Source: a bacterium
GTDB taxonomy: Bacteria > Myxococcota_A > UBA9160 > UBA4427
Assembly (NCBI GenBank): GCA_024742285.1
Contig: JANSYR010000006.1
Span: 248,001-312,000 of the forward strand
Reading direction: 5' to 3'
Length of the DNA: 64,000 bases
Made by a program: the position numbers and the translations under genes. Numbering within the stretch: position 1 is the stretch's first letter; each line of letters opens with the position of its first letter. Shown piece by piece: positions 10,656-55,329 of this stretch. The notes under the pieces were generated by a model. That model saw only the letters and a program-made list of their open reading frames with translations. It was not told where the DNA came from and ran no database searches.

Positions 10656-10667
10656 GCGTCGCTCCGA

Positions 10668-35580: not shown

Positions 35581-37740
35581 CTAGCGCCCCGATCGGCGCC
35601 GCGCGGAGGCCTCGAGCCAGCGACGCCGCAGGGCGTGCACCCATCGATCACGAGAGACCTCGCCGACCCAGTTGCCGAGGGCGTCCTTCACGTGATGCCG
35701 ATACAGGTCCGCGGCCCACGCGTACGCCCGCCCCGAAGGACCGGCGCGCGCCGCCCCGAGGCCGCGCAGGTCGGAAGCGCTCGCCAGATAGACCTCGAAC
35801 GCGCTCCGCAGCTCCGGCGGAAGCGTCTCGAGGTGGGGCGCGACGATGCGCGCCACGAGGTCTGCGTGCCGCACGTGTGCGGCGGCGGCGAGTCCGGCGG
35901 GGCGCTGGCGGTAGCGGTGGAAGACCGCCGGCAACCCTTCCCCCGCATGCCCCGCGACCGCGAGTCGGAGCTGGAGATCCCAGTCTTCGTAGGCGGGCAG
36001 CTCCTCCCGGTAGGGGAACGCCTCGAGGGTCTCACGCCGAAAGACGGCGGCTGCGGTTCCGCATCCGTTCTCGTAGAAGAGCATCCCGGGCGTCGGGTCG
36101 TAGGGCACGACCCAATCGCTGGCGAGGGCCGGATCGTCCCCGTCGGCGAAGGCCGCCGAGATGCCGTTCACCCAGCAGAGCTCTTCGTGCGCGTCGAGCG
36201 CGGCGACGGCGGTACCGAGGTAGCCGGGCACGATCAGGTCGTCGGGGTCGAGCGGAAGCACGAACTCCCCGCGCGCTTCGGCGACGCCGGCGTTGCGCGC
36301 GCTCGCGAGCCCGCCGTTGGCCTTGCGCACGACTCGCAGCTCGCACGCGTCGAAGGTGGACGCGATCGAATCGAGCAGGTCGCGCGCTTCCGGGGACGGT
36401 GAACCGTCGTCGACGAGGAGGATCTCCTTGCGGGGATGGGGATCCGCGACGATCGAATCGAGGCACGCCTCGAGGTAGGCCTGCATCTCGTAGAAGGGAA
36501 TCACGATCGACACGAGCGCCGGTTCGGCGCGAGGGGGTTCGCGCTCGGGCGTCGCGGGAGCGCGCGGGGGATCGACTGCACGAACGGGGTCCCCTCCCCC
36601 GCCCCGCGGCGCGGCTGGCCACTCGCCGGCGTCGAGCGCGCGGCACCATCGGTCCAGGATCTGGGCGAGCGCATCGACGGCGTCGACCGGAAAACGGTCG
36701 ATCGATCCCCCGGACGCTCCGTCTCCGAGATCGCGGAACGCCCCCAGATCCGTCACGGCGAGCGGGAGCCCGATCGAGGCGAGCTCCCTCGCGGCGAGGC
36801 CGAAGGTCTCCGTTCGACTCGGTACGACCGCCGCATGGCAATCGGCCATCCGACGCAACGCCGCTTCGCGCGGCAACGCCCCATGGAAGTGGACCCGGCC
36901 CGCGTGCTCCGGAGCGACCAGACGACGCAGCTCCTCCGCGTGACTCGCCCGAAAACGACCGGGCTCGTCCGCGCCGACCAGATGCAGCTCGAGGGCGTCC
37001 CCGCCCCGCGCCTCGAACACGCTCGAAGCGGCTCGAAGCAAGGTCTCCGGCCCCTTCAGCGGCTGCAGCTTGCCGAGGAACCCGATCCGAAGCGGCCGCC
37101 CCTCGGCGATCGGCGGAGGCGACCACGCGATTCCCGGTCTTTCGAACGAGGGCGGCGAGATCGCGCGATTCGGCGCGAGCGGCTGCGCGTCGGCGTACTC
37201 GTCGAGGACCGCCGCCGACGGCGCGACGATTCGATCGGCGTGGCGGAGCGCATAGCGTTCGATCGCGAGTCGCTGCTTGTCTTCCAGGGAGAGCATGGCC
37301 CGATCGTCCGCCGCGGAGACCCGCGCGACCGTTCCGTGCAGGCGGACCGTGACTGGCGGAAGCGGGGGGCCGAGTCCGAGCCGGCGCGCCTTGATCGAGA
37401 CGAAGCCGGGACCATCGAAGTCCGGAAACTCGATCGACTCGACCGCCTCCGACTCGACGATCGAACACAGCGCGAGCCAGATGCGATGGGAGCGCCAGTG
37501 CGCGCGGGATCGGAAGACGCGCCGGGGAAGCATGCCCTGCCCCCGCGCCGCCACGTGCTCGACCCGCGCTTCCGCAGGAACGCTCTTCCGAACGCGCGTC
37601 ACGACGGAGGCCGACGCATCGAGGACCACCAGCGCGCGCGCAGGATCCCGCTCGACTTCCGCTCGCACGGCCTCGCCGATCCCGCCGCGCGTTTCGCCCC
37701 CCCACTCGTCCGTCACGAAGGCGATTCGGGTGAGGCTCAT
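35581..37740 (-). CDS. Bifunctional glycosyltransferase, GT4 followed by GT2
   Basis: 719 residues. The first half has a GT-B fold with the GT4 donor-site region IGFLGKLQPLKGPETLL and a VPSRTETFGLAARELASIGLP acceptor/nucleotide segment. From about residue 430 a GT2 GT-A domain begins: VSIVIPFYEMQAYLEACLDSI, the ILLVDDGS motif, KANGGLASARNAGV and LPLDPDDLIVP containing the metal-binding Asp pair. A basic helical tail ends the protein. Cytoplasmic, probably membrane-associated, adding two different sugars to a lipid-linked chain. The ATG at 37740 overlaps the stop of the upstream gene by four bases (ATGA). Last gene of the glycan operon. Confidence 0.9.
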   Translation of the reverse strand: MSLTRIAFVTDEWGGETRGGIGEAVRAEVERDPARALVVLDASASVVTRVRKSVPAEARVEHVAARGQGMLPRRVFRSRAHWRSHRIWLALCSIVESEAVESIEFPDFDGPGFVSIKARRLGLGPPLPPVTVRLHGTVARVSAADDRAMLSLEDKQRLAIERYALRHADRIVAPSAAVLDEYADAQPLAPNRAISPPSFERPGIAWSPPPIAEGRPLRIGFLGKLQPLKGPETLLRAASSVFEARGGDALELHLVGADEPGRFRASHAEELRRLVAPEHAGRVHFHGALPREAALRRMADCHAAVVPSRTETFGLAARELASIGLPLAVTDLGAFRDLGDGASGGSIDRFPVDAVDALAQILDRWCRALDAGEWPAAPRGGGGDPVRAVDPPRAPATPEREPPRAEPALVSIVIPFYEMQAYLEACLDSIVADPHPRKEILLVDDGSPSPEARDLLDSIASTFDACELRVVRKANGGLASARNAGVAEARGEFVLPLDPDDLIVPGYLGTAVAALDAHEELCWVNGISAAFADGDDPALASDWVVPYDPTPGMLFYENGCGTAAAVFRRETLEAFPYREELPAYEDWDLQLRLAVAGHAGEGLPAVFHRYRQRPAGLAAAAHVRHADLVARIVAPHLETLPPELRSAFEVYLASASDLRGLGAARAGPSGRAYAWAADLYRHHVKDALGNWVGEVSRDRWVHALRRRWLEASARRRSGR

Positions 37741-38855
37741 GCTCGGTGCCCCGATCCGTCGGCGAGGAAGCGATCGATCGAAGCCCGTGCGACCTCCGCG
37801 TAGGCAGGCGCCCAGACCGCGTACGCGTCGAGGATCGCGTCCCGATCCGAGACCGCCCGTCGAATCGCGGCCTCGATCGCGCGGGGATCGTCGGCGCGCG
37901 GCACCACGAGACGTGTCTCGAGGAGCTGCGCCGCTTCGTCCACCGCGGGCGTCGAGACGACCGGCGTCCCTACGAAGAGGTGACTGGATGCGCCGATCAG
38001 GCAGGGCACGCCGAGATGGAGACTCTCGAGCGGCAGGAGCGGTGAACACTCCGAGAGCGTCACGTAGAGATTGCAGTCCTGGGCGCGGAGAAGGCCGACG
38101 AGCGCCGGCGCGTCGAAGGGATGGGCCCGGACGTGGGCCAGCGCGATCCCGAGCCCTCGCGCGTGGGCCTGCGCCGGCGCGTCGAGTACGCCCGTCAGCC
38201 GGGCCTCTTCGAGGCGGGCCACCGCGGCGAGCATCGCGTAGGGGTTCTTCCGCCAGGAGGGACCTGCGACGAAGAGTCCCAGGCGAAGCGTCGCCTCCTT
38301 CCCATCACCAGGGCGGGGGCTTCGCTCCGGCGAGCCGGTCGGCGGCGGGTTGAAGACGTCCACGGCAGGCAGGCCTCTGCTCGCTTGCGCTCCGCCCTCC
38401 CCGGACTTGAAGAACCCGATCCGATCGATCACGCCTTCCGCCGCGAGGGCCATGACCTCCGCGTAGTGCCTCCGCTCGTCGGCGTCGGCGAGCTGCATCG
38501 GCGAGCCGTGCCAGAGCACGCCGAGAAAACGTTCCGGCGCGCGCGCTGCGAGCGCGCGCGCGACCGCCGCGTAGCCGTCGACCCAGCCGGAGAAGACGAT
38601 CCGCTCGGCGGCGGAATCGAGGATCGCAGCGACGAGCCCGCGGCGATCGGAAGCGAGGACGAGCGCGGCCCCATCGACGTCGACGGTCGCCGGAAACAGG
38701 CGCCGCGTCGCGGCCGAGACACCGAGATAGTCGCCCGGCGCGATCGCGACCGTGCCGTCCTCGCAGCCGTCGATCCCGGCCGTCGTCCAGTCGACCCGTC
38801 CGCGCCGAGCTCGAGCGCCCCAACGAGCCAGGCCTGCGCGCGCGCGGCCGATCAT
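37737..38855 (-). CDS. Glycosyltransferase-like protein, paralogous to the C-terminal part of 41858-44059
   Basis: 372 residues. Segments GVLWHGSPMQ, DRIGFFKSGEGG, GLFVAGPSWRKNPYAML and NLYVTLSEC-x-P-LPLESL-x-G-PCLIGASSHLF match the last 300 residues of the fusion protein at 41858 in order. They look like a GT-B glycosyltransferase C-terminal (donor) half with an unusual N-terminal half; the classical GT4 EX7E motif is not clear. ATG at 38855 overlaps the upstream stop (ATGA); the open frame further upstream lies inside that gene. Third-last gene of the glycan operon by position; sugar specificity unknown. Confidence 0.85.
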   Translation of the reverse strand: MIGRARAGLARWGARARRGRVDWTTAGIDGCEDGTVAIAPGDYLGVSAATRRLFPATVDVDGAALVLASDRRGLVAAILDSAAERIVFSGWVDGYAAVARALAARAPERFLGVLWHGSPMQLADADERRHYAEVMALAAEGVIDRIGFFKSGEGGAQASRGLPAVDVFNPPPTGSPERSPRPGDGKEATLRLGLFVAGPSWRKNPYAMLAAVARLEEARLTGVLDAPAQAHARGLGIALAHVRAHPFDAPALVGLLRAQDCNLYVTLSECSPLLPLESLHLGVPCLIGASSHLFVGTPVVSTPAVDEAAQLLETRLVVPRADDPRAIEAAIRRAVSDRDAILDAYAVWAPAYAEVARASIDRFLADGSGHRA

Positions 38856-40930
38856 CTTCCCGACCGCGAGACCGCGCGCCCCAGGAGCTTTCGGCGGAGC
38901 TTGGTCCACGCCATGCGCAGCAACGTCGTACCGTTCAGGTGATCGCTGGCGATCCTCCGCGCCCGCGCCTCGTCGAGCGCCGGTGCAGGAACCGCTGCGG
39001 GGCGCTCTCCGTCCTCCGAGAGCGCGAGCAGCGAGAGCCTCTCCCGGATCGCGCCGGGCGCCGCGGCCTGAACGAGGAAGGCCAGCTGCCCGGGCTCGCG
39101 GATCTCCTCTTCGGCACTGCTCGCCGTGAGTCGGGCCTGGGCGAGCAGGGAGCCGCGTCCGTAGTCGACCTGGGCACGCCAGAGGACGCCGACTTCCCCG
39201 TAGTGGCCGGCCTGGGAATCGAAGAGCTCGACGAGGAGCGTCTCGGGACGCGTTCGGATCAGCGCTCGACTCCTGCGCGCACCGAAGTCGAAGGGGTAGC
39301 GCTCGGGGACGAGGTCGAGCGCCGAGATCACGAGCCGCCCTTCGAAGTCGCGGAACCAGGTGCCGGCAAAGCCCATGCTCGGGTTGCGTTCGAGGGCGCC
39401 CCGACAGAGCGCGAGGAAGTCGTCGTCCGGATGATCGCCGGCAACGAGAAGCCAGAGCGCGTCCTGTGTCCTCACGCTCGCCAGAGCCGCCGGCTCGCCG
39501 TTCGCGGACGCGACACGTCGGGTCGCTCCGAGCCAGCGGACGCCGCTCGCCGCTTCCGGCGCTCGTGGGTCCTCGTCGTGATAGGCCAGCAGGAGCCGGT
39601 CGCCCTCCTCCATCTGCGCGCGGACGGCGCCGACGGTGGCCTCGATCTGGGGCTCGGTCGCCGCGAGCGGCACCTCGACGATCGTCGTGACGTAAAGACG
39701 CACCTCGGTTTCCCGCGCGATCGGGCGGAGCGCTCGAGGCCGCTCGTAGAAGTCTCCGAGGGGCGCAGTCGCGAGCGGTGTGCCCTTCTCGAGCCCCGCC
39801 AGGCGCTCCGGGTTCTCGAGGAGTGTCCCGATCTGGTCGGCGAGATCCGTGCTCGACCCGTCGAAGTACCAGGCGTGGACCCCTTCCTCGAAGTAGTTCC
39901 GGAACGCGGGGATGTCGGCCATGAGGAGCGGGACACCCGCCTCGTGAGCTTCGTGCGCGGCGTAGCAGAACGACTCGAAGCGATTCGGGAAGACGGTGAC
40001 GCGCGCCCTTCCGAAACGCTCCGCCACCTGGTCGTGCGGGAGGTGTCCCGTGAACTCGAAACGATTCCGGAAGCGCTCGGGGATCGTGCCGAGCAGGTAT
40101 TCCGTGTAGCTGGCGCCGCCGGGACCGTCCCGGCCGTCGTTTCCGATGAAGACGAAGTCGACGTCGAGGTCGGGCTGCCGCTCGAGCAGGAGGAGCGCGG
40201 CGCGCACGAGCCGTTCCACGCCCTTGAACTCGAAGATCCGACCGAAGAACTGGACCTCACGGACGTCGCCCGGCGCGAGGATGGGGCGCGCCGGAAAGCG
40301 AGCCGTCGGCGGTTCCGAGATCCGGATCGCCGTCGGGTCGAGCTCGTACCGGTCGAGATAGTAGGCGTCGGCATAGCTCTGCGACGGCAGGAGCGTCGCC
40401 TCGGAGAGCGCCAGCCCCGCGCGCTCGAGGCCGTAGAGGATCGATCGATCCCGATCGATGCCGTGCGTTCCTTCGTGGAGATCGATCAACTCCACGCTGT
40501 TGTGGACCCGCATGCCCAGCACCGGCATCCGGGGCTGGAGCCCGAAACGCTTCTCGACCAGCGCGTGATAGCCGACGCCGCAGTACTCGAAGAACTCGAC
40601 GAAGTCGACCGGATCGAGCTCCGCCAGGCGCCTCACCGCATGGGCGAAGCGCAGACTCTTCGCGAGGAAGGGGTTCTCGACCTCGGCCAGGAGCGACGGC
40701 GCGTCTTCGCACAGGGCGTCGGCGTGATGGGCGCGACATCGCTCGGGAACGCTGAGCGTCGGGAGGTCGTCCTTCTCGAAACGATCGAAGTAGACCTTCG
40801 GCACGTCGAGCAGGAGGACGACTTCATGCCCCTGCTGGAGGAGCAGATCCGTCGCGTGTCTCAGGAGGACGCCACACCCTCCCCAGGTGGTCGGATGGAA
40901 CTCGTAGGTGGCGAAGAGAATGCGAGCCAC
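38852..40930 (-). CDS. Glycosyltransferase, GT4 domain plus C-terminal GT2-like domain
   Basis: 692 residues. The N-terminal half is GT4-like: MARILFATYEFHPTTWGGCGVL start, VQFFGRIFEFKGVERLVRAAL donor-site segment and VFPNRFESFCYAAHEAHEAGVPLL, containing the E-x7-E-type pattern. The C-terminal half from about residue 420 has a GT-A-like plan (VRLYVTTIVEVPLAA, RLLLAYHDEDPR) but lacks a clear DXD, and so may be a degenerate or binding domain. The start is GTG at 40930. Stop overlaps the next gene's ATG by four bases; the sulfotransferase gene stop is six bases upstream, so this is one tightly packed operon. Confidence 0.88.
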   Translation of the reverse strand: MARILFATYEFHPTTWGGCGVLLRHATDLLLQQGHEVVLLLDVPKVYFDRFEKDDLPTLSVPERCRAHHADALCEDAPSLLAEVENPFLAKSLRFAHAVRRLAELDPVDFVEFFEYCGVGYHALVEKRFGLQPRMPVLGMRVHNSVELIDLHEGTHGIDRDRSILYGLERAGLALSEATLLPSQSYADAYYLDRYELDPTAIRISEPPTARFPARPILAPGDVREVQFFGRIFEFKGVERLVRAALLLLERQPDLDVDFVFIGNDGRDGPGGASYTEYLLGTIPERFRNRFEFTGHLPHDQVAERFGRARVTVFPNRFESFCYAAHEAHEAGVPLLMADIPAFRNYFEEGVHAWYFDGSSTDLADQIGTLLENPERLAGLEKGTPLATAPLGDFYERPRALRPIARETEVRLYVTTIVEVPLAATEPQIEATVGAVRAQMEEGDRLLLAYHDEDPRAPEAASGVRWLGATRRVASANGEPAALASVRTQDALWLLVAGDHPDDDFLALCRGALERNPSMGFAGTWFRDFEGRLVISALDLVPERYPFDFGARRSRALIRTRPETLLVELFDSQAGHYGEVGVLWRAQVDYGRGSLLAQARLTASSAEEEIREPGQLAFLVQAAAPGAIRERLSLLALSEDGERPAAVPAPALDEARARRIASDHLNGTTLLRMAWTKLRRKLLGRAVSRSGR

Positions 40931-40936
40931 GCCGGC

Positions 40937-41833
40937 CTAGTTCCCGACGGCGAACACGGAGCGCCAGCCTCGACGGGGCACCAGGGGCGGGTTGCCGAGA
41001 TCCCGGTACCCGAGCGCCTCCATGGCGGCGCCACACTCCCGGTAGACGATCCGACGGAAATAGCTCGCTCGAGAGATCGCCCGCCGGGAGTCCACCGCGA
41101 GCGCGGCAGGGCTCACCTGGTTCCGGAACGAGCTGTTGAAGGTCGGCCCGCCCAGCTGCGCGCCCATCTCCGGCACGTACTCGACCCCCGCGTGCGCGGC
41201 CAGGCGCTCGGCCCACTCCTCGGGCGCCTCGAGCAGGTCCTCGTGCCGCGCCAGCAGGACCGCATCACCGAACTCCCCGTCCGCGACCCGCTGAGCGACG
41301 GAAGCATGCTGGCACCAGTGATGCGCCACCTGACGGAGATTCTCGGGGTCGCGGGTCCGGGCCGGGTCCGCCCACGGCGCGTGGACCGCACTCCAGACCA
41401 CCTCCTCGGCGTGGCGAAGGACGTAGACGAAACGCGCTTCGGGCATCGCTTCGATCATCTCCGCGAGGTAGAGCCCGTCGCCCGGATGCGCGTTCACGAA
41501 GCGCCCGGTTCGCGATCCGTGCTCCTCGACACAGTGGCGGATCGTGGCCTCGACCATCCGCGCGAGGTAGCGATCGTCGACGTCCCAGCCGTACATCGGA
41601 CTTCCGAACGAGGACCGCGCGCCGAAGAGGTTCCGGAAGTAGTAGAGCTCCTTCGGGTCGTAGCCCGTTTCCGGGTCGTACCCGCGAAGCGGCGCCAGGT
41701 CGGGATGGGCCGTCAAGGCGGCCCAGACCACGCTCGTGCCGGAACGCTGACAACCGACCACGAAGACGTTGTCGCGCCGAAGATCCTCCGACGCGACTTC
41801 CTTCCGTTCGTTGGCACGGGATTCCGACGACAC
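40937..41833 (-). CDS. Sulfotransferase family protein
   Basis: 298 residues. The PAPS-binding P-loop NVFVVGCQRSGTSVVWAAL lies near residues 22-40 and the 3'-phosphate-binding segment is seen in RFVYVLRHAEEVVWSAV. Transfers sulfate from PAPS to a hydroxyl, presumably on the glycan built by the surrounding genes. No signal peptide or membrane segment; a cytoplasmic reaction before export is inferred. The start is GTG at 41833 behind GGAGAGAAGC. It lies between two glycosyltransferase genes with gaps of 6 and 24 bases, which supports sulfation of the same polymer. No PAPS synthesis gene is in the window. Confidence 0.92.
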   Translation of the reverse strand: MSSESRANERKEVASEDLRRDNVFVVGCQRSGTSVVWAALTAHPDLAPLRGYDPETGYDPKELYYFRNLFGARSSFGSPMYGWDVDDRYLARMVEATIRHCVEEHGSRTGRFVNAHPGDGLYLAEMIEAMPEARFVYVLRHAEEVVWSAVHAPWADPARTRDPENLRQVAHHWCQHASVAQRVADGEFGDAVLLARHEDLLEAPEEWAERLAAHAGVEYVPEMGAQLGGPTFNSSFRNQVSPAALAVDSRRAISRASYFRRIVYRECGAAMEALGYRDLGNPPLVPRRGWRSVFAVGN

Positions 41834-41857: not shown

Positions 41858-44059
41858 CTAGAGAGCGAGGAAGGCCTCGACGCTCTTCCGGGCGCGGGCG
41901 ACGTAGCCCGGCGCGTAGGCGCGGTACGCCTCGACGATCTCGTCGCGTTCCTCCATCGCCTGGAGGAGCTTCTCGTAGATCGATTCACTCGAGTCGGCGA
42001 AGGGAACGACCAGACGATCGTAGAGGTATCGGTCGTCTCGGAACAGGTGGCTGTTCGCTCCGACCAGGCAGGGCGTGCCGACGGAGAGGCTCTCGAGCGG
42101 GAGCATGGGGCAGCACTCGGACAGCGTCACGTAGAGGTTCACGTGCATCAGCCGCATCCACTTGCGTAGCTCGTCGGGGCCGAAGAGTCCGTCTCCGTGC
42201 GGCTGGACCTTGAGCCCGATCAGCCGGGAGAACTCCAGCAGCCGCCGCCGCTCTCCGTTGTAGTGGAGGTTGCCGCCGGGCACGCGCGCGACGCCCGCCG
42301 CCATCGCGTAGGGCACCTTTCGCCAGCCCTCGTTCGAGATCCACATCCCGAAGTGCGGACCGCCCTCGGCATGCTCCGAGGGACCGTCCGGGACGTCCTC
42401 GACGTAGTTGAGGACGAAGCCGGCGTTGATCCCCTGCTGGGTCATCAGCTCCGCCATCCCCTCCTTCACGAATCCGAGCGCGTGGACGTGCCCGCGGCGT
42501 GCCATCTCGGTCATGAGACGGAGCCCACGCCAGGCGTAGTCTTCGCGCGCCTGGAGATAGCTGCCGTGCCAGAGAACGCGAATCCGCGTGTTCGGACTGC
42601 GATCGCGGATCTCTCGCGCGAGATGCAGGTGGTCGAGCGCCCCACCCGAGAGAACGAGCGACTCGCAGCCCGAATCCTCGATCACCGCGAGAAACCGGTC
42701 TCGCGCGGCCGTCGTCAGTCGTTCGGAGAGCGGCGCGTGGACCCTGAAGAGGGCTTGCGTCGAGTTGCCGATCCCCGTCCACCCGGGTGGATAGACCGCG
42801 AGGCATCGATCCGGATCCGCCTGGATCATCTCGCTCAGCGCCGCGTCCTCCGTCGTGAACGCGCTCTCCGTCGCGCCGTCGGTCCCGGTCATCAGCGGGA
42901 CCGGCACGTCTTCGTCGAGGAGGATTCCCGAAGAGGCGTCGAAGACCAGGGGCGTCGATCGGTTTCGCGAGAGATCGAGGTCGTAGTCTTCCTTGCCCAC
43001 GCTGATGCGACAGCGCCCGGCGTCGGTCCCGCCGAGCAGTCCGATCTCGATCGACGCGCCGTAGTCGAAGAAATGGATCGAGTCTCCGGGCGTCGTCGAC
43101 AGCAGGGCTTCGCCGAACGCGGCGTCCTTGTCCGACTCGGCCTCCCAGCCTCCACGCGTGCGAAGGAAGTCCCAGAGCACCGAGGTGTCGTCGCTCGTCA
43201 CGCGGTTCACGCGCAGCGGACTCCCATCGACGTTCCGGATCGAGATCGCCTCCCCGGGCGCGCGGCGAAGTCGCTTCCCGAGCTGCCAGACCAGCGCATT
43301 GTTGCGAGCCTGATTCACCGCTCGCCAGGCACCGGAAGCACGAATCGACTCGAGCGCCTGCACGCGCTCGCGCACGTGCGCCAGGAGATCCTTGTCGCCG
43401 AGATCGAGCGCGGCCGGAACGAAGCTCGCGCGGGACGTCGACGCTCCACCGACGGGGCCCTGCCCGTCACCGCCGAAGAGCCCGAGTCGAAGATTGCGTG
43501 GGTCTTCCCGCGAGAGCACGACGCTCGCGAAGGGCCGCTCCTCGAAGTCGAGGAAGCACTGTTGGGCGACGACCAGCGCGGGGTCGAAGTCGGTGAGCTC
43601 CCAGACCGCCTTGTGCTCTTCGTAGGGATTGTCGTACATGTCCTCCTGGGGCCAGTCCTCGCCCAGGGGCAGGTTCACCATCACGTAGTCGGAGCGCTCG
43701 ACCAGATCCGAGAGCAGCCTCTCGCCGTCGGACTTGTAGAAATGCTCGAGGACGTCCCCGAGGATCGCGAGGGTCCAGTTCCCGTCGAGCCCGGGAAGGA
43801 CTTCGAGCGCGTCCCCCACGTGGATACGGTTGTAGAACTGCCGGTGGTAGTCGACGATGCTGCCCTCGAAGGCCTCGATGCCCTCGATGTCGATCTCCCA
43901 CTGCTCGGGCAGGACGCGGTTGAACCAGACTTCGCCGAACTCGCGAAGGATCATCCCCCAACGACCGAAACCGACGCCGATGTCGACGACGCGCTTCGGC
44001 TGGATCTGCATGATCGCCTGGACGCACCAGGGGATGTTGTGCCAGTTACTCGTTCCCAT
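41858..44059 (-). CDS. Methyltransferase-glycosyltransferase fusion protein
   Basis: 733 residues. Residues 1 to about 175 form a class I SAM methyltransferase: RVVDIGVGFGRWGMI is motif I, followed by VLPGLDGNWTLAILGDVLEHF. A linker of mixed helix (HVRERVQALESI) and beta content covers 200-420. From about 425 to the end the sequence aligns in order with the whole 372-residue protein at 37737: VLWHGSYLQ, LGFVKEGM, NEGWRKVPYAMA, and NLYVTLSECCPMLPLESL. The fusion suggests that addition and methylation of a sugar are physically linked. It follows the coiled-coil methyltransferase gene by 62 bases in the glycan operon. The middle region has no recognised family. Confidence 0.88.
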   Translation of the reverse strand: MGTSNWHNIPWCVQAIMQIQPKRVVDIGVGFGRWGMILREFGEVWFNRVLPEQWEIDIEGIEAFEGSIVDYHRQFYNRIHVGDALEVLPGLDGNWTLAILGDVLEHFYKSDGERLLSDLVERSDYVMVNLPLGEDWPQEDMYDNPYEEHKAVWELTDFDPALVVAQQCFLDFEERPFASVVLSREDPRNLRLGLFGGDGQGPVGGASTSRASFVPAALDLGDKDLLAHVRERVQALESIRASGAWRAVNQARNNALVWQLGKRLRRAPGEAISIRNVDGSPLRVNRVTSDDTSVLWDFLRTRGGWEAESDKDAAFGEALLSTTPGDSIHFFDYGASIEIGLLGGTDAGRCRISVGKEDYDLDLSRNRSTPLVFDASSGILLDEDVPVPLMTGTDGATESAFTTEDAALSEMIQADPDRCLAVYPPGWTGIGNSTQALFRVHAPLSERLTTAARDRFLAVIEDSGCESLVLSGGALDHLHLAREIRDRSPNTRIRVLWHGSYLQAREDYAWRGLRLMTEMARRGHVHALGFVKEGMAELMTQQGINAGFVLNYVEDVPDGPSEHAEGGPHFGMWISNEGWRKVPYAMAAGVARVPGGNLHYNGERRRLLEFSRLIGLKVQPHGDGLFGPDELRKWMRLMHVNLYVTLSECCPMLPLESLSVGTPCLVGANSHLFRDDRYLYDRLVVPFADSSESIYEKLLQAMEERDEIVEAYRAYAPGYVARARKSVEAFLAL

Positions 44060-44121
44060 CTGCCCTGCGCCCCCACGTCGCTTCGCTGCAGCACCGGCCC
44101 GGGTGAATGGCCGGATCTCTT

Positions 44122-46548
44122 CTAGTCACCATCGAACAGCGTGCCCAGGCCGGCACGCAATGCTTCGAGTTCCTGCTCCGCCCGCTGCTGGAGACGACGC
44201 GCTTCGTCGATTCTACCGAGGGCCTCGTTGGCACGCTGCCGCTCGAGTCCGCATTCCCGGCGGATCGCCTGGATTTCGCCCTCGATCTCGTCGACGCGAT
44301 CCTCGGCGCTCCGCGCGCGGCGACGCTCCCGATCCGCCTTCTCTTCGCCGCGCTCGGCCCGGAGTCGATTCTCGCCGACGCGCGCCTCGGCATCGACCGC
44401 TCGATCCCGGAGCTCGATGATCGTCGCCTCGGCCCGCTCCGCCCGCCGCCGCAACGCGATCAGGCGACTCTGGGCGTCCCGTTCCTGTTCGATCACCCGC
44501 TCCTGCGCCGACTGGGTCCGCATCAGGGCTTCGGCGAGCTCGTCCCCTCGCGCAGTCTCGATCGCGAGGGCCTCGTTCACCTCGTCGACCCGCGCGATCG
44601 CGGATTCCTCGCGCTCCCGAAGGTCGCGCCGTTCCCGTTCGAGCTCGGCGCGCCTGGACCTCGCCCCGTCGAGCCGCTCGTTCAGCCCCGAGATCCGTTC
44701 CTTCAGGGCGGCGACCTCCTCCTCCGAGCGCGTCCGTGCGCGCTCGAGCGCCTCGTCGAGAGACGCGACCCGACCTCGTTCGGTCGCGAGCCGCTCGGCA
44801 GCCTCGACGACCTGTCCCTCGGCGGCCTCCGCGCGCTCGACGGCCTCGGTGGCCCGCCCCTCGGCCCGGCGGGCCCGATCCTGCAGCTCGCCGATCCGTC
44901 CCTCGGCCGTTCGCGAACGCTCGAGGATCGATTCTGCGCGCGCCTCGAGCTCCCGGATCCGCTCGATCCGCTCCTCGGCGACGACCCGAACGCGCTCCAG
45001 ATCCGCACGCAGCGCGTCCTGGACCTCGACCGCGCGGCGAGTCCCCTCCCCGGCCTCGCGAAGCCGTTCCGCCATCTCGCGGGTCCGGGCTTCCGATTCG
45101 GTCGCGCGCGTTCGAAGCTCCGCCCCGCGCTCCTCGGCTCGACGCGCACGCTCGATCGTCTCTTCGACGGTCGTCCGGACGCTTCGGAGCTCGTCCGTCA
45201 ACTCCTCCGCACGCCCCTCTGCGAGCGTGGCTCGCGCAAGCAGCGGCTCGACCCGTCCTTCGGCGTTCCGCGCCCGATCGAGGAGGGACGCGTTCGCCTC
45301 CTCGGCTTCCTTCGCACGATCGAGCAGCGCCGCGTTGGCTTCCTCCGCGCGCCGCGCTCGATCGACCAGCGCCGAGTTGGATTCCTCCGCTCGCCGCGCT
45401 CGATCGAGGGCCGACGTCCGACTCGCCTCTGCCTGCTTCGCGCGCTCGCGGAGCGAAGCGGAAGTCGTCTCGGCGATCCGCGCGCGCTCGCGCTGTTCGT
45501 CCAGGGCACCGCGTGCCGTCGCGAGGTCCTCCTCGAGACCCGCGAACCGGGCGGTCGACTCCTCGAGCCGCCCTTCGGCCTCGAGGGCCCGCTCGCGCTG
45601 GGCCTCACGGTCCTGCTCCGCGCTTCGGGCGCGCTCCCGCAGTCGCTCGAGGTCGGCCTCCGCCGCCAGGGCGCGCTCCCGCTGCCGCTCGAGCTCCGTC
45701 TCCGCCGCGACCGCGCGCTCCCGCTGGACTTCCCGATCTCCCTCCGCGCTCCGGGCCCGCGCGACGAGATCGTTCGCCCGCGTGCCCAGGTCCGCGACAC
45801 GGTCCTCGAGCGTGCGTGTCCGGCCCTCGCTCTTCGCGCGATCCCGTTCGCGGCGCACGAGCTCGCCGGTGAGGGTCCGATCGAGGGCGAGGAAGCGCTT
45901 CGCGCGCGCGGGCGTCATGAAGGACGGAGCCTCGACTTCGGGTCCGATCGCGCGGTACACGTCCTCGATCTCGAAGAGCGAGGGGGCGATCTCGAGGCGT
46001 GCCTCGGGAACGGCGGCGGCATAGGCGGCCTTCAAGTCGTGCGCCCAGCAGCCGTCGTGCGCTTCCGACGTCACGTAGGTCTCGTCCGTGTCGTTGTTCT
46101 CGATGTGGACGACGTGGCCACCGCTCACCCGCCAGAGCTCGCGCAGGATCTTCTCGAGATCACGCGGGCGGATGTGGATCAGGACCGACACGGTGAAGAC
46201 GACGTCGAACTCGCCATCGGCGTAGGGCAGCTTGTTGAGGGGACGTCCGACCTTGACGTGCTTCTCGCGCCACGAGCGGCGCGCCCATCGCATCCCCTCG
46301 AGCATCGATTCGCTCTGGTCGAAGCCGTACACGTCGAGCTTCGGGATTCGCCGCAGGTATTCGAGGTGCCGGCCGAAGCCACAGCCGAACTCGAGCACCT
46401 TCGCGGGCGCCAGACGCGAGAAATACTCCTCCAGGAAGATCTCCTGGAGGTGGTAGATCGGCATGTAGGCCTTGCGGGCGGCGACCTCGTCTCGCCAGCC
46501 GTCGCCGTGGTCCTGCCACCACCGATAGTTCTTCGGCGGTCTGCTCAT
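44122..46548 (-). CDS. Methyltransferase with very long C-terminal coiled coil, WbdD-like architecture
   Basis: 808 residues. A class I methyltransferase fills residues 1 to about 200 (KVLEFGCGFGRHLEYL motif I, YGFDQSESML, GEFDVVFTVSVLIHI). From about 225 to 800 the protein is an almost unbroken coiled coil rich in Arg, Glu and Ala, with 14-residue (two-heptad) units such as RARRAEEANAALLD. It follows the Wzt-like gene with an ATGA overlap, the position held in E. coli O8/O9a by wbdD, whose methyltransferase caps the O-chain and whose coiled coil sets chain length. Unlike O9a WbdD no kinase domain is visible between the two parts. Role as chain terminator and ruler is inferred from architecture and synteny. 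Confidence 0.9.
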   Translation of the reverse strand: MSRPPKNYRWWQDHGDGWRDEVAARKAYMPIYHLQEIFLEEYFSRLAPAKVLEFGCGFGRHLEYLRRIPKLDVYGFDQSESMLEGMRWARRSWREKHVKVGRPLNKLPYADGEFDVVFTVSVLIHIRPRDLEKILRELWRVSGGHVVHIENNDTDETYVTSEAHDGCWAHDLKAAYAAAVPEARLEIAPSLFEIEDVYRAIGPEVEAPSFMTPARAKRFLALDRTLTGELVRRERDRAKSEGRTRTLEDRVADLGTRANDLVARARSAEGDREVQRERAVAAETELERQRERALAAEADLERLRERARSAEQDREAQRERALEAEGRLEESTARFAGLEEDLATARGALDEQRERARIAETTSASLRERAKQAEASRTSALDRARRAEESNSALVDRARRAEEANAALLDRAKEAEEANASLLDRARNAEGRVEPLLARATLAEGRAEELTDELRSVRTTVEETIERARRAEERGAELRTRATESEARTREMAERLREAGEGTRRAVEVQDALRADLERVRVVAEERIERIRELEARAESILERSRTAEGRIGELQDRARRAEGRATEAVERAEAAEGQVVEAAERLATERGRVASLDEALERARTRSEEEVAALKERISGLNERLDGARSRRAELERERRDLREREESAIARVDEVNEALAIETARGDELAEALMRTQSAQERVIEQERDAQSRLIALRRRAERAEATIIELRDRAVDAEARVGENRLRAERGEEKADRERRRARSAEDRVDEIEGEIQAIRRECGLERQRANEALGRIDEARRLQQRAEQELEALRAGLGTLFDGD
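45275..45442. repeat. 42-base tandem repeats in the coiled-coil region
   Basis: Four units with exact 42-base period, each beginning CGATCG on the plus strand at 45275, 45317, 45359 and 45401. They encode 14-residue units of the coil on the minus strand. More diverged units of the same period continue on both sides. The period equals two heptads, so gain or loss of a unit keeps both reading frame and coiled-coil register. Confidence 0.9.
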
Positions 46549-47864
46549 GCGCGCGCGTCTCTCCCGGTCGACGGCGCACCCGCTTCGACGCCGATCTGCG
46601 CGTCGAACTTGTAGTGGATGGGCCGATCCTCTGCGGGATGGCTCAAGAAGGTGGCTACGCCGTCGATCTGATCATAGAGAATCGGGCGTCGATGGTCCTC
46701 TCGGTTGATTCGCGTGACGGCGACGGAGACGCCGAATCGTCCCGGCCGGAGTCTGTTCACGAAGCGAAACGAAACCTCGCCCACGTCCCCTGGAGAAGCC
46801 GGAGAGAGCTCCACACCTTCGTCCCACGTCATCGTCCCGCAGAGGTTCACGCCCGTCTCGTCCCTGACGAGGAAGGACACGTTCAGGTCGACGCTCTCGA
46901 TCGAGGACTCGTAGCGGACGAAGACGACGATCTCGTCGAGGTAGTCGAACGCCTCAGCGGGTCGCCCATTCGCATCACGGATCTCGACGACGCGGAGCCG
47001 GACCTCCTGGCTGCCGTAGCGATCGAGTCCGCGGGTCTGGCGGTCGATGTTCGCGCTCCGCGACGCCGGCTCTTCCTTCGCTCCCGGATGCTCGCGAGGC
47101 GCCGACTCGGCGGGCGCGTCCGTTCGAACCGACTGCAGGTAGAGGTCCGTCGCCTTCGCGGTCTCTCCGAAGAATTGGACCCGGCCGGCCTCGAGCAGCA
47201 GTGAACGATCGCAGAGGGCATTCACGCGATCGACCGAATGACTGACGAAGAGCAGGGTCGCGCCCTGCGAGCGCATGCGCTCGATCCGGGTCACGCACTT
47301 CTGCTGGAAGGGTGCGTCGCCGACCGCGAGGATCTCGTCGACGATCAGGATGTCCGGCTGGAAGGCCGTCGCGACCGCGAAGGCGAGCCGGGCATACATC
47401 CCGCTCGAGTAGGTCTTGACGGGCTCCTCGAGGAAGTGGCCGATGTCGGCGAAGGCTGCGATCTCGTCGAAACGAGACTCGACCTCGGCACGACCGAAGC
47501 CCTGGATCGAGCCCGAGAGGAAGACGTTCTCGCGCCCCGTGAAGTCCGGGTGGAAGCCGGCGCCGAGCTGGAGGAGTGCGGCGACGCGTCCGCGCACGAC
47601 GCCCCGCCCCTCGGTCGGCGTGCGGGTCCCGGCGATGATCTCGAGCAGCGTGCTCTTGCCCGCGCCGTTGCGACCCACGATCCCGACCGCTTCGCCTGCG
47701 GCGACCTCGAAGGAAACGTCCCTGAGTGCCCAGATCTCGGAGCGCTTCCCGCGCATCCGGAATCGCTTCGAGATCCCGGACGCCTCGATGACCCACTCGC
47801 GACTTCCCGCTGCGCCATGGGCGAGGCCCGCGCCTTCCGTGGGCTTCGCCTCGTCAGAGGGCAT
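46545..47864 (-). CDS. wzt: ABC transporter ATPase with C-terminal glycan-binding-type domain, Wzt-like
   Basis: 439 residues, ATPase of a polysaccharide/O-antigen exporter. Walker A GRNGAGKST is at 64-72, the signature YSSGMYARL, Walker B ILIVDEILAVGD and the switch His in VSHS follow. After about residue 290 a separate beta-sandwich-like domain begins (QEVRLRVVEIRDANGRPAEAF, VDLNVSFLVRD, GVSVAVTRINRED), the plan of Wzt C-terminal domains that recognise the capped chain end. ATG at 47864 is used; it overlaps the permease stop by 11 bases. The stop overlaps the start of the coiled-coil methyltransferase by four bases, linking export and predicted capping at the translational level. Confidence 0.93.
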   Translation of the reverse strand: MPSDEAKPTEGAGLAHGAAGSREWVIEASGISKRFRMRGKRSEIWALRDVSFEVAAGEAVGIVGRNGAGKSTLLEIIAGTRTPTEGRGVVRGRVAALLQLGAGFHPDFTGRENVFLSGSIQGFGRAEVESRFDEIAAFADIGHFLEEPVKTYSSGMYARLAFAVATAFQPDILIVDEILAVGDAPFQQKCVTRIERMRSQGATLLFVSHSVDRVNALCDRSLLLEAGRVQFFGETAKATDLYLQSVRTDAPAESAPREHPGAKEEPASRSANIDRQTRGLDRYGSQEVRLRVVEIRDANGRPAEAFDYLDEIVVFVRYESSIESVDLNVSFLVRDETGVNLCGTMTWDEGVELSPASPGDVGEVSFRFVNRLRPGRFGVSVAVTRINREDHRRPILYDQIDGVATFLSHPAEDRPIHYKFDAQIGVEAGAPSTGRDARA

Positions 47865-48705
47865 CGGCGAAGCCCTCGCGCGAGCGCAGGAAGATCGCGT
47901 AGCCCAGCAGGAAGACGACGAAGGAGACCGCCCCAGGCCCGAGCAGCGCTTCGGGAGAGGGAGCGACACCGAGGAGCAGAACACTCCGTGAGACGTCCAC
48001 CGCCGCGGCGGTCGGCACGAGCCGGATCCACGCTTCGACGTCGTCCGGAAGGCGTTCGAGGGGATAGAAGATCCCGCTCGCGAAGAAGAGACCGGTCATA
48101 CCGATCCCCACCAGGGGCTCGAGGTCACGCACGGAGACCGAGATCGCCGCGACCGCATAGCAGACCCCCAACGAGAAGACGGCGAAGAACGCCCAGACGA
48201 CGGGGAGCCAGAGCGCGGTCCATCCGATCGAAACGCCCGATGCGACCAGGAAGACCAGGAGCACGCCGAGGCCCGCAGCCGCGTGGACGCAGGCGGCCGC
48301 GATCTGGACGACGGGCAGGACCTCGAGGGGGAACACGACGCGCTGGACGAAGTTCCGATGGGCGAGAATGAGCTTCGGACAAGCGCGCACGGACTCGGCG
48401 AAGATGTTGAAGGTCACGAGTCCCGTGAACACGATGACGGCGTACCCGGCGATGTCACTGTCGTAGATGCCGGGCCAGCTCGCGCCGAAGACGAACGAGA
48501 ACACGAAGGTATAGACCGCGAGCAGAAGCAGCGGCTGCAGGACGGGCCAGCAGAAACCGAGCCAGGAGCCGCGGTAGCGGACCTCGAGCTCCCGAGCCGT
48601 CAGGCTTCGGACGAGCCCGAGGTTGCGCCAGATCGCCATCGCGAAGAGGACGTCGACGAGGCGCCGAGGCGCGACGCCGGGCGGCTGGAGAATGCGCTCT
48701 TCCAA
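47854..48705 (-). CDS. wzm: ABC-2 type polysaccharide exporter permease, Wzm-like
   Basis: 283 residues, six predicted TM helices, inner membrane. The motif region YRGSWLGFCWPVLQPLLLLAVY near the N-terminus is characteristic of Wzm/TagG/KpsM-type permeases, and FASGIFYPLERLPDD with the following helix pair matches the C-terminal half. Pairs with the ATPase encoded directly downstream to form the channel that moves a lipid-linked glycan across the inner membrane. The start is TTG at 48705, with GAGG upstream. First gene of the tightly packed part of the glycan operon; the methyltransferase gene lies 114 bases before it. Confidence 0.93.
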   Translation of the reverse strand: MEERILQPPGVAPRRLVDVLFAMAIWRNLGLVRSLTARELEVRYRGSWLGFCWPVLQPLLLLAVYTFVFSFVFGASWPGIYDSDIAGYAVIVFTGLVTFNIFAESVRACPKLILAHRNFVQRVVFPLEVLPVVQIAAACVHAAAGLGVLLVFLVASGVSIGWTALWLPVVWAFFAVFSLGVCYAVAAISVSVRDLEPLVGIGMTGLFFASGIFYPLERLPDDVEAWIRLVPTAAAVDVSRSVLLLGVAPSPEALLGPGAVSFVVFLLGYAIFLRSREGFADAL

Positions 48706-48819: not shown

Positions 48820-49599
48820 TCAGAACGTCTCGCAGTCCGCGTCCGGCCCGTCGCCCTTGAAGGCGAGCAGCAGGACCCGGCGCCCTTCGCGATACATGAC
48901 CGGTGCCCACGCGGGCGGTTCGACCTGCGTCACGATCCCGAAGCCACCTGCCTGGAGCATCTCGATCAGCGCGCGCCGGTTGGGAACCATGACCGAAGTC
49001 TCCACCGCGTTGTGATGAAGGTCGGGATCCTCGCTCCGGTAGACGCAGACGCTGCCGGGCTGCGTGTTCACGTTGCTGTCGACGACGCAGACGTCGCGGG
49101 TGATCGTCGCGAGCTGACGCGCGATCTCGATCGGGTCGCTCAGGTGGTACATGAAGCCGAGCGCGAGCACGACGTCGTGGGGGCCGAACTGCTTCTCCAT
49201 GTCGTAGAGGTTGGCCTGCTGGAAGCGAAGCTCTTCCTCCGGAATGCCCCGCACCTCCCGGATGAACTCGCATTTCGCCACGTTCTCCGCGCGCGCATCG
49301 AAAGCGTCGATGCTCCGCGCGCCCGCGCGATGGAGCTCGAAAGACCAGAGCCCCGCGTTGCATCCGCCGTCGAGAAACGTACGGCCGGCGAATCCGTCGC
49401 GCCCGAGGGCCGCCGCGAGGGCGCCGAAGATCATGCGGCGCCGCAATGCGTTCCACTCGTGGTGCTCGTCCGAGTTCGGCGTGAAGACGCCCGGCGCGAT
49501 CTCGTAGCGATACTGCCAGGGCGCGAGCGAGTCGGCCTCCTGCTGCAGGCGTGCCTTCTCCTCGTCCGTGATTCCAGCTTCGGCGATCTTGTCGCTCAT
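48820..49599 (-). CDS. SAM-dependent methyltransferase (CmoB/DUF1698-like)
   Basis: 259 residues, class I methyltransferase. TFLDGGCNAGLWSFELHRAG is motif I, DAFDARAENVAKCEF motif II and DVVLALGFMYHLSDPIEIA motif IV. The N-terminal part WQYRYEIAPGVFTPNSDEHHEW resembles the lead-in of DUF1698-type enzymes such as CmoB, which modifies tRNA wobble uridine; members of this broad group also act on glycans and small molecules. Being directly upstream of wzm on the same strand favours a sugar-methylation role, which cannot be proven from sequence. ATG at 49599 with GGGGGG upstream. Confidence 0.88.
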   Translation of the reverse strand: MSDKIAEAGITDEEKARLQQEADSLAPWQYRYEIAPGVFTPNSDEHHEWNALRRRMIFGALAAALGRDGFAGRTFLDGGCNAGLWSFELHRAGARSIDAFDARAENVAKCEFIREVRGIPEEELRFQQANLYDMEKQFGPHDVVLALGFMYHLSDPIEIARQLATITRDVCVVDSNVNTQPGSVCVYRSEDPDLHHNAVETSVMVPNRRALIEMLQAGGFGIVTQVEPPAWAPVMYREGRRVLLLAFKGDGPDADCETF

Positions 49600-49712
49600 C
49601 GATCCCCCCTGGTCCTCGGCGCCGTCCATGGACCCCACCGAAGCGCTGCGCGCGAGAGCCTAGCCCTTCCTGCCCGCGACCGGTGCCGAGGGCGACCAGC
49701 CCGTCGGCCGGA

Positions 49713-55244: not shown

Positions 55245-55329
55245 CGCGCCTCCCCGCGCCAACCCGCCGCGGTCCATCCGGTAGTGTCTGCGCCGTGCGC
55301 CACGGATCGCGATCCGCGTGCGCCGGCGC

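Follow-up and report, generated by a model that had tools for sequence, protein, structure and literature searches.

In Escherichia coli O8 and O9, a head carried on a coiled coil is the chain terminator, and in O9a WbdD a kinase lies between the methyltransferase and the coil, according to the description in PMC3482155. Klebsiella pneumoniae O7 ORF6 combines a methyltransferase, a kinase, a CBM, a coil and two glycosyltransferases on one chain; as presented in PMC11231755, its methyltransferase model resembles CgnL (7pd7), other chain terminators carry other heads, and this assembly strategy has as its characteristic marker a coiled coil within the terminator. In the cap-reading domain of Aquifex aeolicus, residues Asn313, His350, His355 and Trp362 are described as surrounding the 3-O-methyl-capped chain end (PMC9445017). 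The reference loci used here were those of E. coli IAI1 for O8 (L090; serotype by the Wzm and Wzt names in the record) and E. coli HS for O9/O9a (L088).

Gene organization of the locus

The window analyzed is a stretch of 64,000 nucleotides from a member of the Myxococcota. It contains consecutive genes for the glycan ABC exporter permease Wzm (47854..48705, 283 aa; PF01061, 2.1e-20), for Wzt with an ATPase and a C-terminal cap-reading domain (46545..47864, 439 aa; PF00005, 2e-22; PF14524) and for a methyltransferase/coiled-coil protein (44122..46548, 808 aa), which, like all other features described below, lie on the minus strand. The sequence-only reading had proposed such a set with overlaps of 11 bases between wzm and wzt (47854-47864) and 4 bases between wzt and the methyltransferase/coil gene (46545-46548), and both the coordinates and the Pfam matches agree with it. 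The gene order wzm-wzt-methyltransferase/coil-glycosyltransferase is the same as in E. coli O8, where the genes have one-base overlaps, and the order in O9/O9a also corresponds.

On the 5' side of wzm, a SAM methyltransferase of 272 aa (48820..49638; PF13489, 1.5e-8) shows a TIGR04290-like match (6.6e-19, 68 bits, under the cut-off of 300). The next gene after the rod protein (41858..44059) encodes a two-domain protein, here MT-GT, with an N-terminal methyltransferase-like part, an SGAWR segment and a C-terminal glycosyltransferase-like part (Glyco_trans_1_4 at 0.011, a weak match). Both genes are kept in the orthologous locus L033 (homologues at 2.4e-123 and 1.5e-105, respectively), where the N-terminus of the MT-GT homologue matches Methyltransf_23 at 2e-7 and bears SGSWRLVTRLRDN. 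Thus, the conserved gene set has three methyltransferase domains, in the upstream methyltransferase, the head of the rod protein and the N-terminus of MT-GT.

Further along lie a stand-alone sulfotransferase (40937..41833; PF13469, 4.7e-18), a 692-residue glycosyltransferase with a GT4-type domain (38852..40930; PF00534, 3.4e-18), a glycosyltransferase-like protein (37737..38909; PF13692 at 7.1e-5, under the cut-off) akin to the C-terminal part of MT-GT (phmmer 1.2e-43), and a double glycosyltransferase (GT4 + GT2) which is a polymerase candidate (35581..37740; PF13692, 4.1e-15; PF00535, 1.2e-24), with a presumed start near 37740 in an open frame extending to 38049. The same genome encodes LpxC (4.0e-89) and a candidate Wzy_C-family ligase (2.8e-18), and the exported glycan is probably an O-polysaccharide.

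Exporter and cap-reading domain

The window Wzm shares 27% identity over 260 aa with E. coli O9 Wzm, and its best PDB match is 6m96_B (1.5e-17), a protein of A. aeolicus (PMC9445017). Wzt is 41% identical to O9 Wzt over 386 aa and 39% identical to O8 Wzt over 348 aa, in each case across the ATPase and the reader domain. The Wzt_C domain (46647..47024, Wzt residues 281-406; PF14524, 1.5e-19) belongs to a family whose profile matches the structures 2r5o, 7k2t and 6o14, in agreement with the earlier proposal that this part of Wzt is related to carbohydrate-binding domains. Overall, the Aquifex WzmWzt (7k2t, 8dku) represents the best PDB relative of the window Wzt and Wzm and has a reader of the same family, but the chain-end residues around its 3-O-methyl cap are not kept in the window Wzt.

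The equivalents of Asn313/His350/His355/Trp362 are M/T/E/Q in the window Wzt and M/T/D/Q in L033, whereas O8 Wzt has N/H/H/W. Of nine mapped pocket residues of the Aquifex protein, O8 Wzt keeps six, L033 one (Val380) and the window Wzt none. Because the window pocket retains none of the four chain-end residues kept by O8 Wzt, an O8/Aquifex-type cap (3-O-methyl-mannose or -rhamnose) appears unlikely at this locus, and the cap is probably not the 3-O-methyl-mannose of O8. The suggestion of a methyl-only cap as in O8 is therefore not supported.

Methyltransferase head

The head (residues 1-230, 45859..46548) matches Methyltransf_25 (4.7e-15 at residues 51-141) and contains the SAM motif ExGxGxG at residues 53-59 and an HDGCWAHDL motif at residues 164-172, both kept in L033. 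The two heads are 60% identical, with third codon positions varying most. Comparison with WbdD gave blastp values of 0.04 for O9 and 0.50 for O8, and hhalign values of 71% over 105 columns and 63% over 39 columns, respectively; a PDB search with the head gave 22 sequences, none of them named WbdD. As judged by these comparisons, the head resembles WbdD at the superfamily level only, with no demonstrable WbdD homology. This bears on descent rather than on function, since other terminators also have other heads. Thus, of the proposed O8/O9a-like system, the gene order, the Wzt homology and the presence of an orthologue in the same place stand, but descent from WbdD is not supported.

The head scores 43.2 bits against TIGR03587 (pseudaminic-acid-associated methylases), under the curated cut-off of 112 bits. 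When modelled by itself with AlphaFold2, the head reached a pLDDT of only 49, and a fold search with this low-confidence model returned generic methyltransferases only, with CgnL (7pd7) as a weak match at rank 18. No kinase family match was found in the 808-residue protein or in the Pfam-scanned operon proteins, and the O9 kinase segment as a query retrieved no ORF at 1e-4 in the window and 34 loci. A hidden kinase was considered and rejected: the coil begins where the head ends, near residue 230, leaving no space for one. The kinase is absent, as had been supposed, and in this respect the protein is similar to O8 WbdD, which also has a methyltransferase head with a coil and no kinase, and differs from O9 WbdD.

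Coiled-coil rod and its repeats

The rod comprises about residues 214-801 (44146..45909), as defined by a composition rule, periodicity and the AlphaFold2 helix. By the composition rule, the 808-residue protein is the only one among window ORFs of more than 150 aa with a coil-like stretch of at least 100 residues, the next longest being 82 residues. The 3.5-residue hydrophobic periodicity reached a power of 34.3 over 578 residues (maximum of 4.5 in 300 shuffles), and the residue identity at lag 14 was 0.31 (maximum of 0.18 in 1000 shuffles). The heptad phase holds from approximately residue 285 to 802, drifting slowly, with a weak amplitude in residues 229-326. AlphaFold2 with a two-row alignment predicted a near-continuous helix (residues 213-240, 247-333, 342-499, 505-729 and 734-803) at a low mean pLDDT of 57, with breaks at 241-246, 334-341, 500-504 and 730-733. 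The coil of about 580 residues accords with the approximately 575 given in the sequence-only reading, and one register is mostly kept. The estimate in that reading of a reach of roughly 85 nm is correct as arithmetic from the residue count (85.8 nm if fully extended), but it is not a measurement.

Tandem Repeats Finder identified two 42-base arrays in the rod gene, one of 3.4 copies (45268..45408), coding for 14-residue coil units, and one of 2.3 copies (45629..45726). The units differ more at third than at second codon positions in two of the three runs counted, their differences include synonymous ones, and the heptad pattern is kept. Duplication of a 42-base unit, each copy adding 14 residues or about 2.1 nm, seems to have lengthened the rod. 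A chance or wrong-frame coil is contradicted by the high third-position GC of the rod frame, which is like that of the head, by the synonymous differences between units and by an orthologue of the same design. Given the strength of the heptad signal, a single alpha-helix (SAH) rod was rejected as the primary interpretation.

The reference proteins have much shorter coils, of which about 76 residues precede the SRSWRITQPLRWL motif in O8 WbdD and about 138 precede SRSWRMTKGYRYL in O9 WbdD. The WbdD-type motif after the coil (SRSWR in O8 and O9 WbdD), which from its position we infer to be the membrane part of WbdD, is absent from the window protein and from L033, and a similar segment is found in the next gene (MT-GT). 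K. pneumoniae O7 ORF6, whose gene cluster also includes wzm/wzt, resembles the window protein in that its coil parts the methyltransferase head from the polymerase modules, but, as described in PMC11231755, it carries a 223-residue kinase domain and the glycosyltransferases on one chain, and the window protein has neither.

Orthologue and distant relatives

A scan of genome contigs found a close orthologue at one locus, L033, and at 1e-15 the head was found in two of 90 genomes of the class, including the window genome. The gene order in L033 is the same (upstream methyltransferase, wzm, wzt, head-coil, MT-GT), in line with the expectation that close homologues adjoin glycan export genes. Its head-coil protein has 619 aa and is 189 residues shorter, a difference of 27 heptads that carries no weight, since a whole-heptad fit is expected one time in seven by chance. 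The L033 rod gene also has 42-base tandem arrays, and the two coils are hardly alignable.

Across the phylum, relatives of the head at 1e-15 occur in at least six of 377 sampled genomes (the two orthologues included), with seven first-look candidates scored per genome among the matches listed. For the four distant relatives, the 20 kb fetched showed no wzm or wzt, and the relatives themselves lack a coil. On visual inspection, the genes surrounding two of them (L127 and L130) resemble a pseudaminic acid pathway, and two distant stand-alone relatives score 150 and 151 bits on TIGR03587. The nearest stand-alone relatives of the head are sugar-pathway methylases. Homologues located away from glycan export were considered as a refutation and set aside, as the close orthologue adjoins wzm/wzt and the distant relatives have no coil.

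Other Wzt_C loci of the class

Of the 34 Wzt_C loci fetched from the class, 17 also encode a coil linked to a transferase. Five loci (L031, L033, L046, L054 and L061) have a protein with a methyltransferase head and a coil adjoining wzt, and 11 (e.g. L055 and L058) have a sulfotransferase-like head with a coil. In the remaining one (L045, genome G054 of the same order), the coil comes first and an O8-type methyltransferase stands behind it, at a distance of 2.5 kb from wzm/wzt; this domain is 33% identical to the O8 WbdD methyltransferase over 155 aa (7e-22), a relationship that the window head does not share. The other 17 loci, several of them on short contigs, showed no transferase/coil protein by the criteria used. 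By this survey, the window locus is not exceptional within the class in having a long coil next to Wzt.

Like the window protein, the sulfotransferase-like proteins have a long coil after a transferase head and are encoded next to wzm/wzt, but they have another head and the adjacent Wzt readers form a separate clade. Their label is based on weak Pfam matches (in five proteins, at values from 0.00015 to 0.015, below the curated cut-off) and on HRSGTS and RNP motifs, which we take to be sulfotransferase signatures; their profile gave no PDB match at 0.001. The coil proteins of L055, L057, L058 and L050 (N-terminally cut) end in [ST]WRxxLPxRxLGxxA, like the post-coil segment of WbdD. The heads of the class include at least two unrelated methyltransferase kinds and a sulfotransferase-like domain. 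Several of the rods have short in-frame repeats, which measure 42 or 84 bases behind three kinds of methyltransferase and 66 or 138 bases behind sulfotransferase-like heads.

Proposed function and alternative explanations

We consider it reasonably likely that the 808-residue protein is a chain terminator with the rod as a ruler for an ABC-exported surface glycan, probably a new variant of the known principle of a measuring stick which stops chains at a set length. The head would methylate the lipid-linked chain at its non-reducing end and thereby stop its growth. The long coil would keep the head far from the membrane polymerase, so that only chains reaching the head would be capped, and the Wzt C-terminal domain would read the capped end and admit the chain to Wzm-Wzt. 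Since the rod is without the post-coil WbdD motif, a partner probably secures it at its membrane end, and MT-GT is the first candidate because it carries a similar motif before its glycosyltransferase-like part. The sequence itself shows the parts in this order, with a heptad coil, a reader domain and no kinase; chain-end methylation, the ruler function, and the oligomeric state and extension of the rod protein are what we infer. In favour of this reading are the gene order and Wzt homology shared with E. coli O8 and O9, the orthologous locus, the coil statistics, the 42-base arrays in both orthologues, the similar loci of the class, the coil as a marker of such terminators, LpxC and the ligase candidate, and the sugar-pathway relatives of the head. 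Against it weigh the superfamily-level match of the head to WbdD, the missing post-coil motif in both orthologues, the three methyltransferase domains, the low AlphaFold2 confidence and the 17 loci that showed no transferase/coil protein.

The protein may cap chains without being a full-length ruler, its rod folding back or being partly flexible and chain length being set otherwise, in which case the calculated 86 nm would be meaningless. Residues 226-808 include 28 glycines and a single proline. These, the predicted helix breaks, the weak heptad amplitude in residues 229-326 and the shorter orthologue are consistent with this reading, which we nevertheless hold to be unlikely. The heptad register is largely kept over the breaks, so a continuous coil fits better than independent helices, and rod length varies among other members of the class too, as that of a ruler may. 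It is very improbable that the coil is a side effect of the expansion of a GC-rich 42-base repeat, its length unselected and only the head mattering. Tandem 42-base arrays in both orthologues and similar arrays in L031 (42 bases) and L046 (84 bases), where the head is a different one, point in this direction, as do two orthologous coils that hardly align, but the codon-position pattern of the units and their conserved heptads speak against it, and among the 16 coil genes scanned in the class, 10 encode long coils without any tandem array at score 80.

With three methyltransferase domains in the locus, the terminator may instead be another methyltransferase, either the N-terminal domain of MT-GT or the upstream enzyme, with the rod protein as an organiser whose methyltransferase modifies in-chain sugars. 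The SxSWR-type motif, which follows the coil in WbdD, sits in MT-GT and not in the rod protein, as this explanation would have it. We regard it as quite unlikely, since an organiser needs no fused catalytic head and since in O8 and O9 the head on a coil at the same gene position is the terminator, as described in PMC3482155.

Implications for glycan export in the class

Beyond the terminator proposed here, it is conceivable, if doubtful, that capped-glycan export is modular in this class, with exchangeable heads, a Wzt reader varying with the head and several rods built of short in-frame repeats of changeable copy number, and that it includes sulfate-capped glycans. Sulfate-cap chemistry was not found in the literature searched. 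On this reading, repeat slippage would alter the copy number, and chain length could in this way evolve or differ between members of a population. The idea of the coil as a ruler rests on few enterobacterial prototypes, and the two measured here have short coils. The window rod is about four times as long as the O9 WbdD coil and consists of in-frame repeats, and such rods occur with various heads beside the same kind of exporter. Thus, the rods of this class represent a natural length series for testing rod length against chain length, and a cap chemistry worth seeking is predicted by the versions with sulfotransferase-like heads.

Organization of the wzm-wzt-rod operon

Three minus-strand genes overlapping by 11 and 4 bases span 44122-48705, as the sequence-only reading described: wzm (47854-48705; Pfam ABC2_membrane, 2.1e-20), wzt (46545-47864; ABC_tran, 2e-22, and the C-terminal reader domain Wzt_C, 1.5e-19) and a methyltransferase/coil gene (44122-46548; Methyltransf_25, 4.7e-15) encoding the 808-residue rod protein. 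The window, part of a 6.55 Mb genome, contains a single Wzt_C match. Downstream on the same strand lie the gene of a methyltransferase/glycosyltransferase (MT-GT) protein (41858-44059), a stand-alone sulfotransferase gene (40937-41833; PF13469, 4.7e-18) and, in order, the genes of a GT4-type glycosyltransferase, another protein resembling glycosyltransferases and a double glycosyltransferase of GT4+GT2 type. Given the sulfotransferase within this operon, the glycan chain itself may be sulfated. An additional methyltransferase gene (48820-49638) lies upstream of wzm. Besides LpxC, the genome encodes a single Wzy_C-family protein that may act as O-antigen ligase, so a lipopolysaccharide-linked glycan would be a plausible product of the locus.

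Two genes sit immediately upstream of the operon: one encodes a GSDH-domain protein (49713-51929; 2e-43), and the 330-residue product of the other (52084-53076) has no convincing family match. A HAD hydrolase (55318-55893, plus strand; PF13242, 4.6e-18) and a dTDP-4-dehydrorhamnose 3,5-epimerase (57418-57972, minus strand; PF00908, 1.9e-61) are also encoded near the operon and may supply sugar precursors.

A single close relative of the rod protein's methyltransferase head, 62% identical over residues 1-209, is encoded in G021, a genome of the same family (contig JANQSB010000437.1). The orthologous locus, L033, has the order upstream methyltransferase, extra gene, wzm, wzt, head-coil (619 residues), MT-GT. 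Head matches at 1e-15 were found in two of 90 class genomes, the window genome counted. Six of 377 genomes in the phylum sample gave head matches at that threshold, four of them to distant stand-alone methyltransferases with no wzm/wzt match within the 20 kb fetched; the two scanned score 150 and 151 bits with TIGR03587.

Coiled coil of the rod protein

The proposed coil of about 575 residues is borne out by a strong hydrophobicity period of 3.5 (power 34.3, against a maximum of 4.5 among 300 shuffles). Residues 231-808 are rich in Arg (20.8%), Glu (19.4%) and Ala (18.3%) with a single proline, and the heptad signal is weak at residues 229-326. In 56-residue windows the heptad phase stays at about 117-183 degrees through residue 690; beyond it the phase drifts as far as 214 before coming back to 169 at the C-terminal end, leaving room for about one stutter. 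Lag-14 residue identity is 0.31 in this coil (shuffle maximum 0.18) and 0.41 in the L033 orthologue (0.22). At 0.1485 nm per residue, the extended coils would measure 85.8 nm (578 residues) and 57.8 nm (389 residues), respectively; PMC5082667 gives about 20 nm for O9a WbdD. Plus-strand composition changes abruptly at 44001-46000 (GC 0.723, AT skew -0.254, GC skew -0.134), in keeping with an Arg/Glu/Ala-rich coil encoded on the opposite strand.

Comparison with the E. coli O8 and O9 systems

The gene order wzm, wzt, MT/coil, glycosyltransferase is shared with the prototype loci of E. coli HS (O9) and IAI1 (O8). The window Wzt is 41% identical to O9 Wzt (386 residues) and 39% to O8 Wzt (348 residues), and Wzm is 27% identical to O9 Wzm. 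Gene order and Wzt homology agree with the proposed O8/O9a-like set, but the head aligns with both WbdDs at the superfamily level only, and the SRSWR[MI]T motif immediately behind the coil in both WbdDs is absent from the C-termini of the rod protein and its L033 orthologue. PMC11231755 assigns the membrane helix and the polymerase recruitment site to the WbdD C-terminal region, to which we infer that this motif belongs. The MT-GT protein contains SGSWRLVTRLRDN in L033 and SGAWRAVNQARNN in the window, and the WbdD design may be divided between the rod protein and the MT-GT protein.

In the Aquifex reader domain, Asn313, His350 and Trp362 lie at the 3-O-methyl cap and His355 at the adjacent sugar, according to PMC9445017. 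These residues were mapped through an alignment of 13 distant sequences, in which loop positions, chiefly His355, are least certain. O8 Wzt keeps all four and O9 Wzt the Asn only, whereas the window has Met, Thr, Glu and Gln and L033 Met, Thr, Asp and Gln. Of nine mapped residues from the same paper, O8 keeps six (without Tyr233, Ile299 and Asp354), L033 one (Val380) and the window none. Asn313 and Trp362 are retained in two other methyltransferase-type loci, L031 and L061. Since the window Wzt does not keep the reader residues, an O8-type cap at this locus is unlikely, and the suggested O8-like methyl cap is left unsupported.

Rod proteins at Wzt_C loci of the class

Wzt_C occurs in 37 of the 90 class genomes at 41 places; of the 40 other than the window's, 34 were fetched. 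A methyltransferase-head/coil protein adjoins wzt in five (L031, L033, L046, L054 and L061; the L054 coil is short and interrupted), and a sulfotransferase-like head with a coil, alone or with glycosyltransferases, lies near Wzt_C in 11 (L032, L034, L037, L047, L048, L050, L055, L057, L058, L059 and L064). The L050 and L059 proteins are truncated at contig ends, and that of L037 adjoins wzm, 7 kb from a Wzt_C fragment. No transferase/coil protein was seen in 17 of the 34 loci, several of which lie on short contigs. At L045 (5713-7416, minus strand), 2.5 kb from wzm/wzt, the coil precedes an O8-type methyltransferase (33% identity to that of O8 WbdD over 155 residues, 7e-22), the reverse of the WbdD order.

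The window head as query left the L031, L046, L054 and L061 heads unmatched at 1e-4; those of L031, L054 and L061 match one another, with E-values no higher than 1e-53 in the pairs searched, and a weak link joins L046 to L031. By these searches, the methyltransferase heads on class rods are of different kinds. By one measure, coil-like stretches span 595 residues in the window, 397 in L033, 516 in L031, 676 in L046 and 232 in L061, as against 146 in O9 WbdD and 194 in O8 WbdD (a count that includes residues past the motif). Past its reader domain, the L031 Wzt frame (8003-11425, minus strand; 1140 residues) goes on to encode a glycosyltransferase (PF00534, 3.1e-27) and thus may be a Wzt-glycosyltransferase fusion adjoining the MT/coil protein.

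Two tandem arrays with a 42-base unit (45268-45408 and 45629-45726) lie in the DNA of the window coil, and the L033 coil gene has arrays of its own. Repeat-unit differences at codon positions 1/2/3 in three runs, two from the window and one from L033, were 31/19/34, 35/56/76 and 38/20/51, indicating a constrained frame, weakly so in the first run. In a scan of 16 class coil genes (L045 and L054 left out) and two WbdDs, arrays scoring at least 80 had 42-base units in the window, L033 and L031 (5749-5899), 84-base units in L046 (8135-8309), 66-base units in L048 (6853-7207) and 138-base units in L059 (3522-3922); the other ten class genes and the WbdDs gave none. Repeat-built rods extend beyond the window family, with arrays in coil genes bearing other heads.

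Sulfotransferase-like heads

An HRSGTS motif marks the sulfotransferase-like heads on coils beside Myxococcota Wzt_C exporters. The proteins of L055 (2860-5004), L057 (7820-9721), L058 (10420-12579) and L050 (10600-12042) share a basic C-terminal segment, [ST]WRxxLPxRxLGxxA, that resembles the one behind the coil of E. coli WbdD. Such proteins may be sulfate-capping terminators.

A search of the 90 genomes with a profile built from eight of these heads, scoring no more than 26 first-look candidates in each genome, gave 27 matches at a threshold of 1e-20. Measured from where the matches start, 11 are no more than 4.1 kb from a Wzt_C, eight of which had served to build the profile, and four more are within 7-22 kb; the 19 matches outside the profile set divide into three within 4.1 kb, four within 7-22 kb and 12 without Wzt_C on the contig. 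Head and Wzt_C occur together in 19 genomes, the head only in four, Wzt_C only in 18 and neither in 49 (Fisher p 4e-6, for related and hence not independent genomes).

Trees built from 26 Wzt proteins place all nine exporters that have sulfotransferase-like neighbours in a single group, with support of 0.989 in the reader-domain tree and 0.978 in the ATPase tree. Five exporters with unclassed neighbours share this group, and the seven methyltransferase-type Wzt, two from E. coli, fall outside it. All 14 genomes with a Wzt in this group have a sulfotransferase-like head somewhere (seven contributed to the profile), as does one of the nine others (G013). G001 carries both head kinds, each adjoining its own Wzt (L046 and L047). 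Being one group, these Wzt cannot serve as evidence that head and reader co-evolved repeatedly.

Relation to known chain terminators

Among the matches listed in full-text literature searches the prototypes appeared, but no title or abstract described a sulfotransferase-type terminator or a repeat-built ruler; the listed titles and abstracts likewise gave no Myxococcota terminator, although a 2019 terminator census may include such systems. In Aeromonas salmonicida, a stand-alone 216-residue sulfotransferase-domain protein adjoins wzt, and the authors of PMC4483657 give it no role. PMC11231755 describes the coil-terminator strategy as widespread among bacteria, so this kind of system is already known. 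The best reading of the window rod protein is that it is probably a chain terminator, and the window system would represent a variation on the known terminator strategy.
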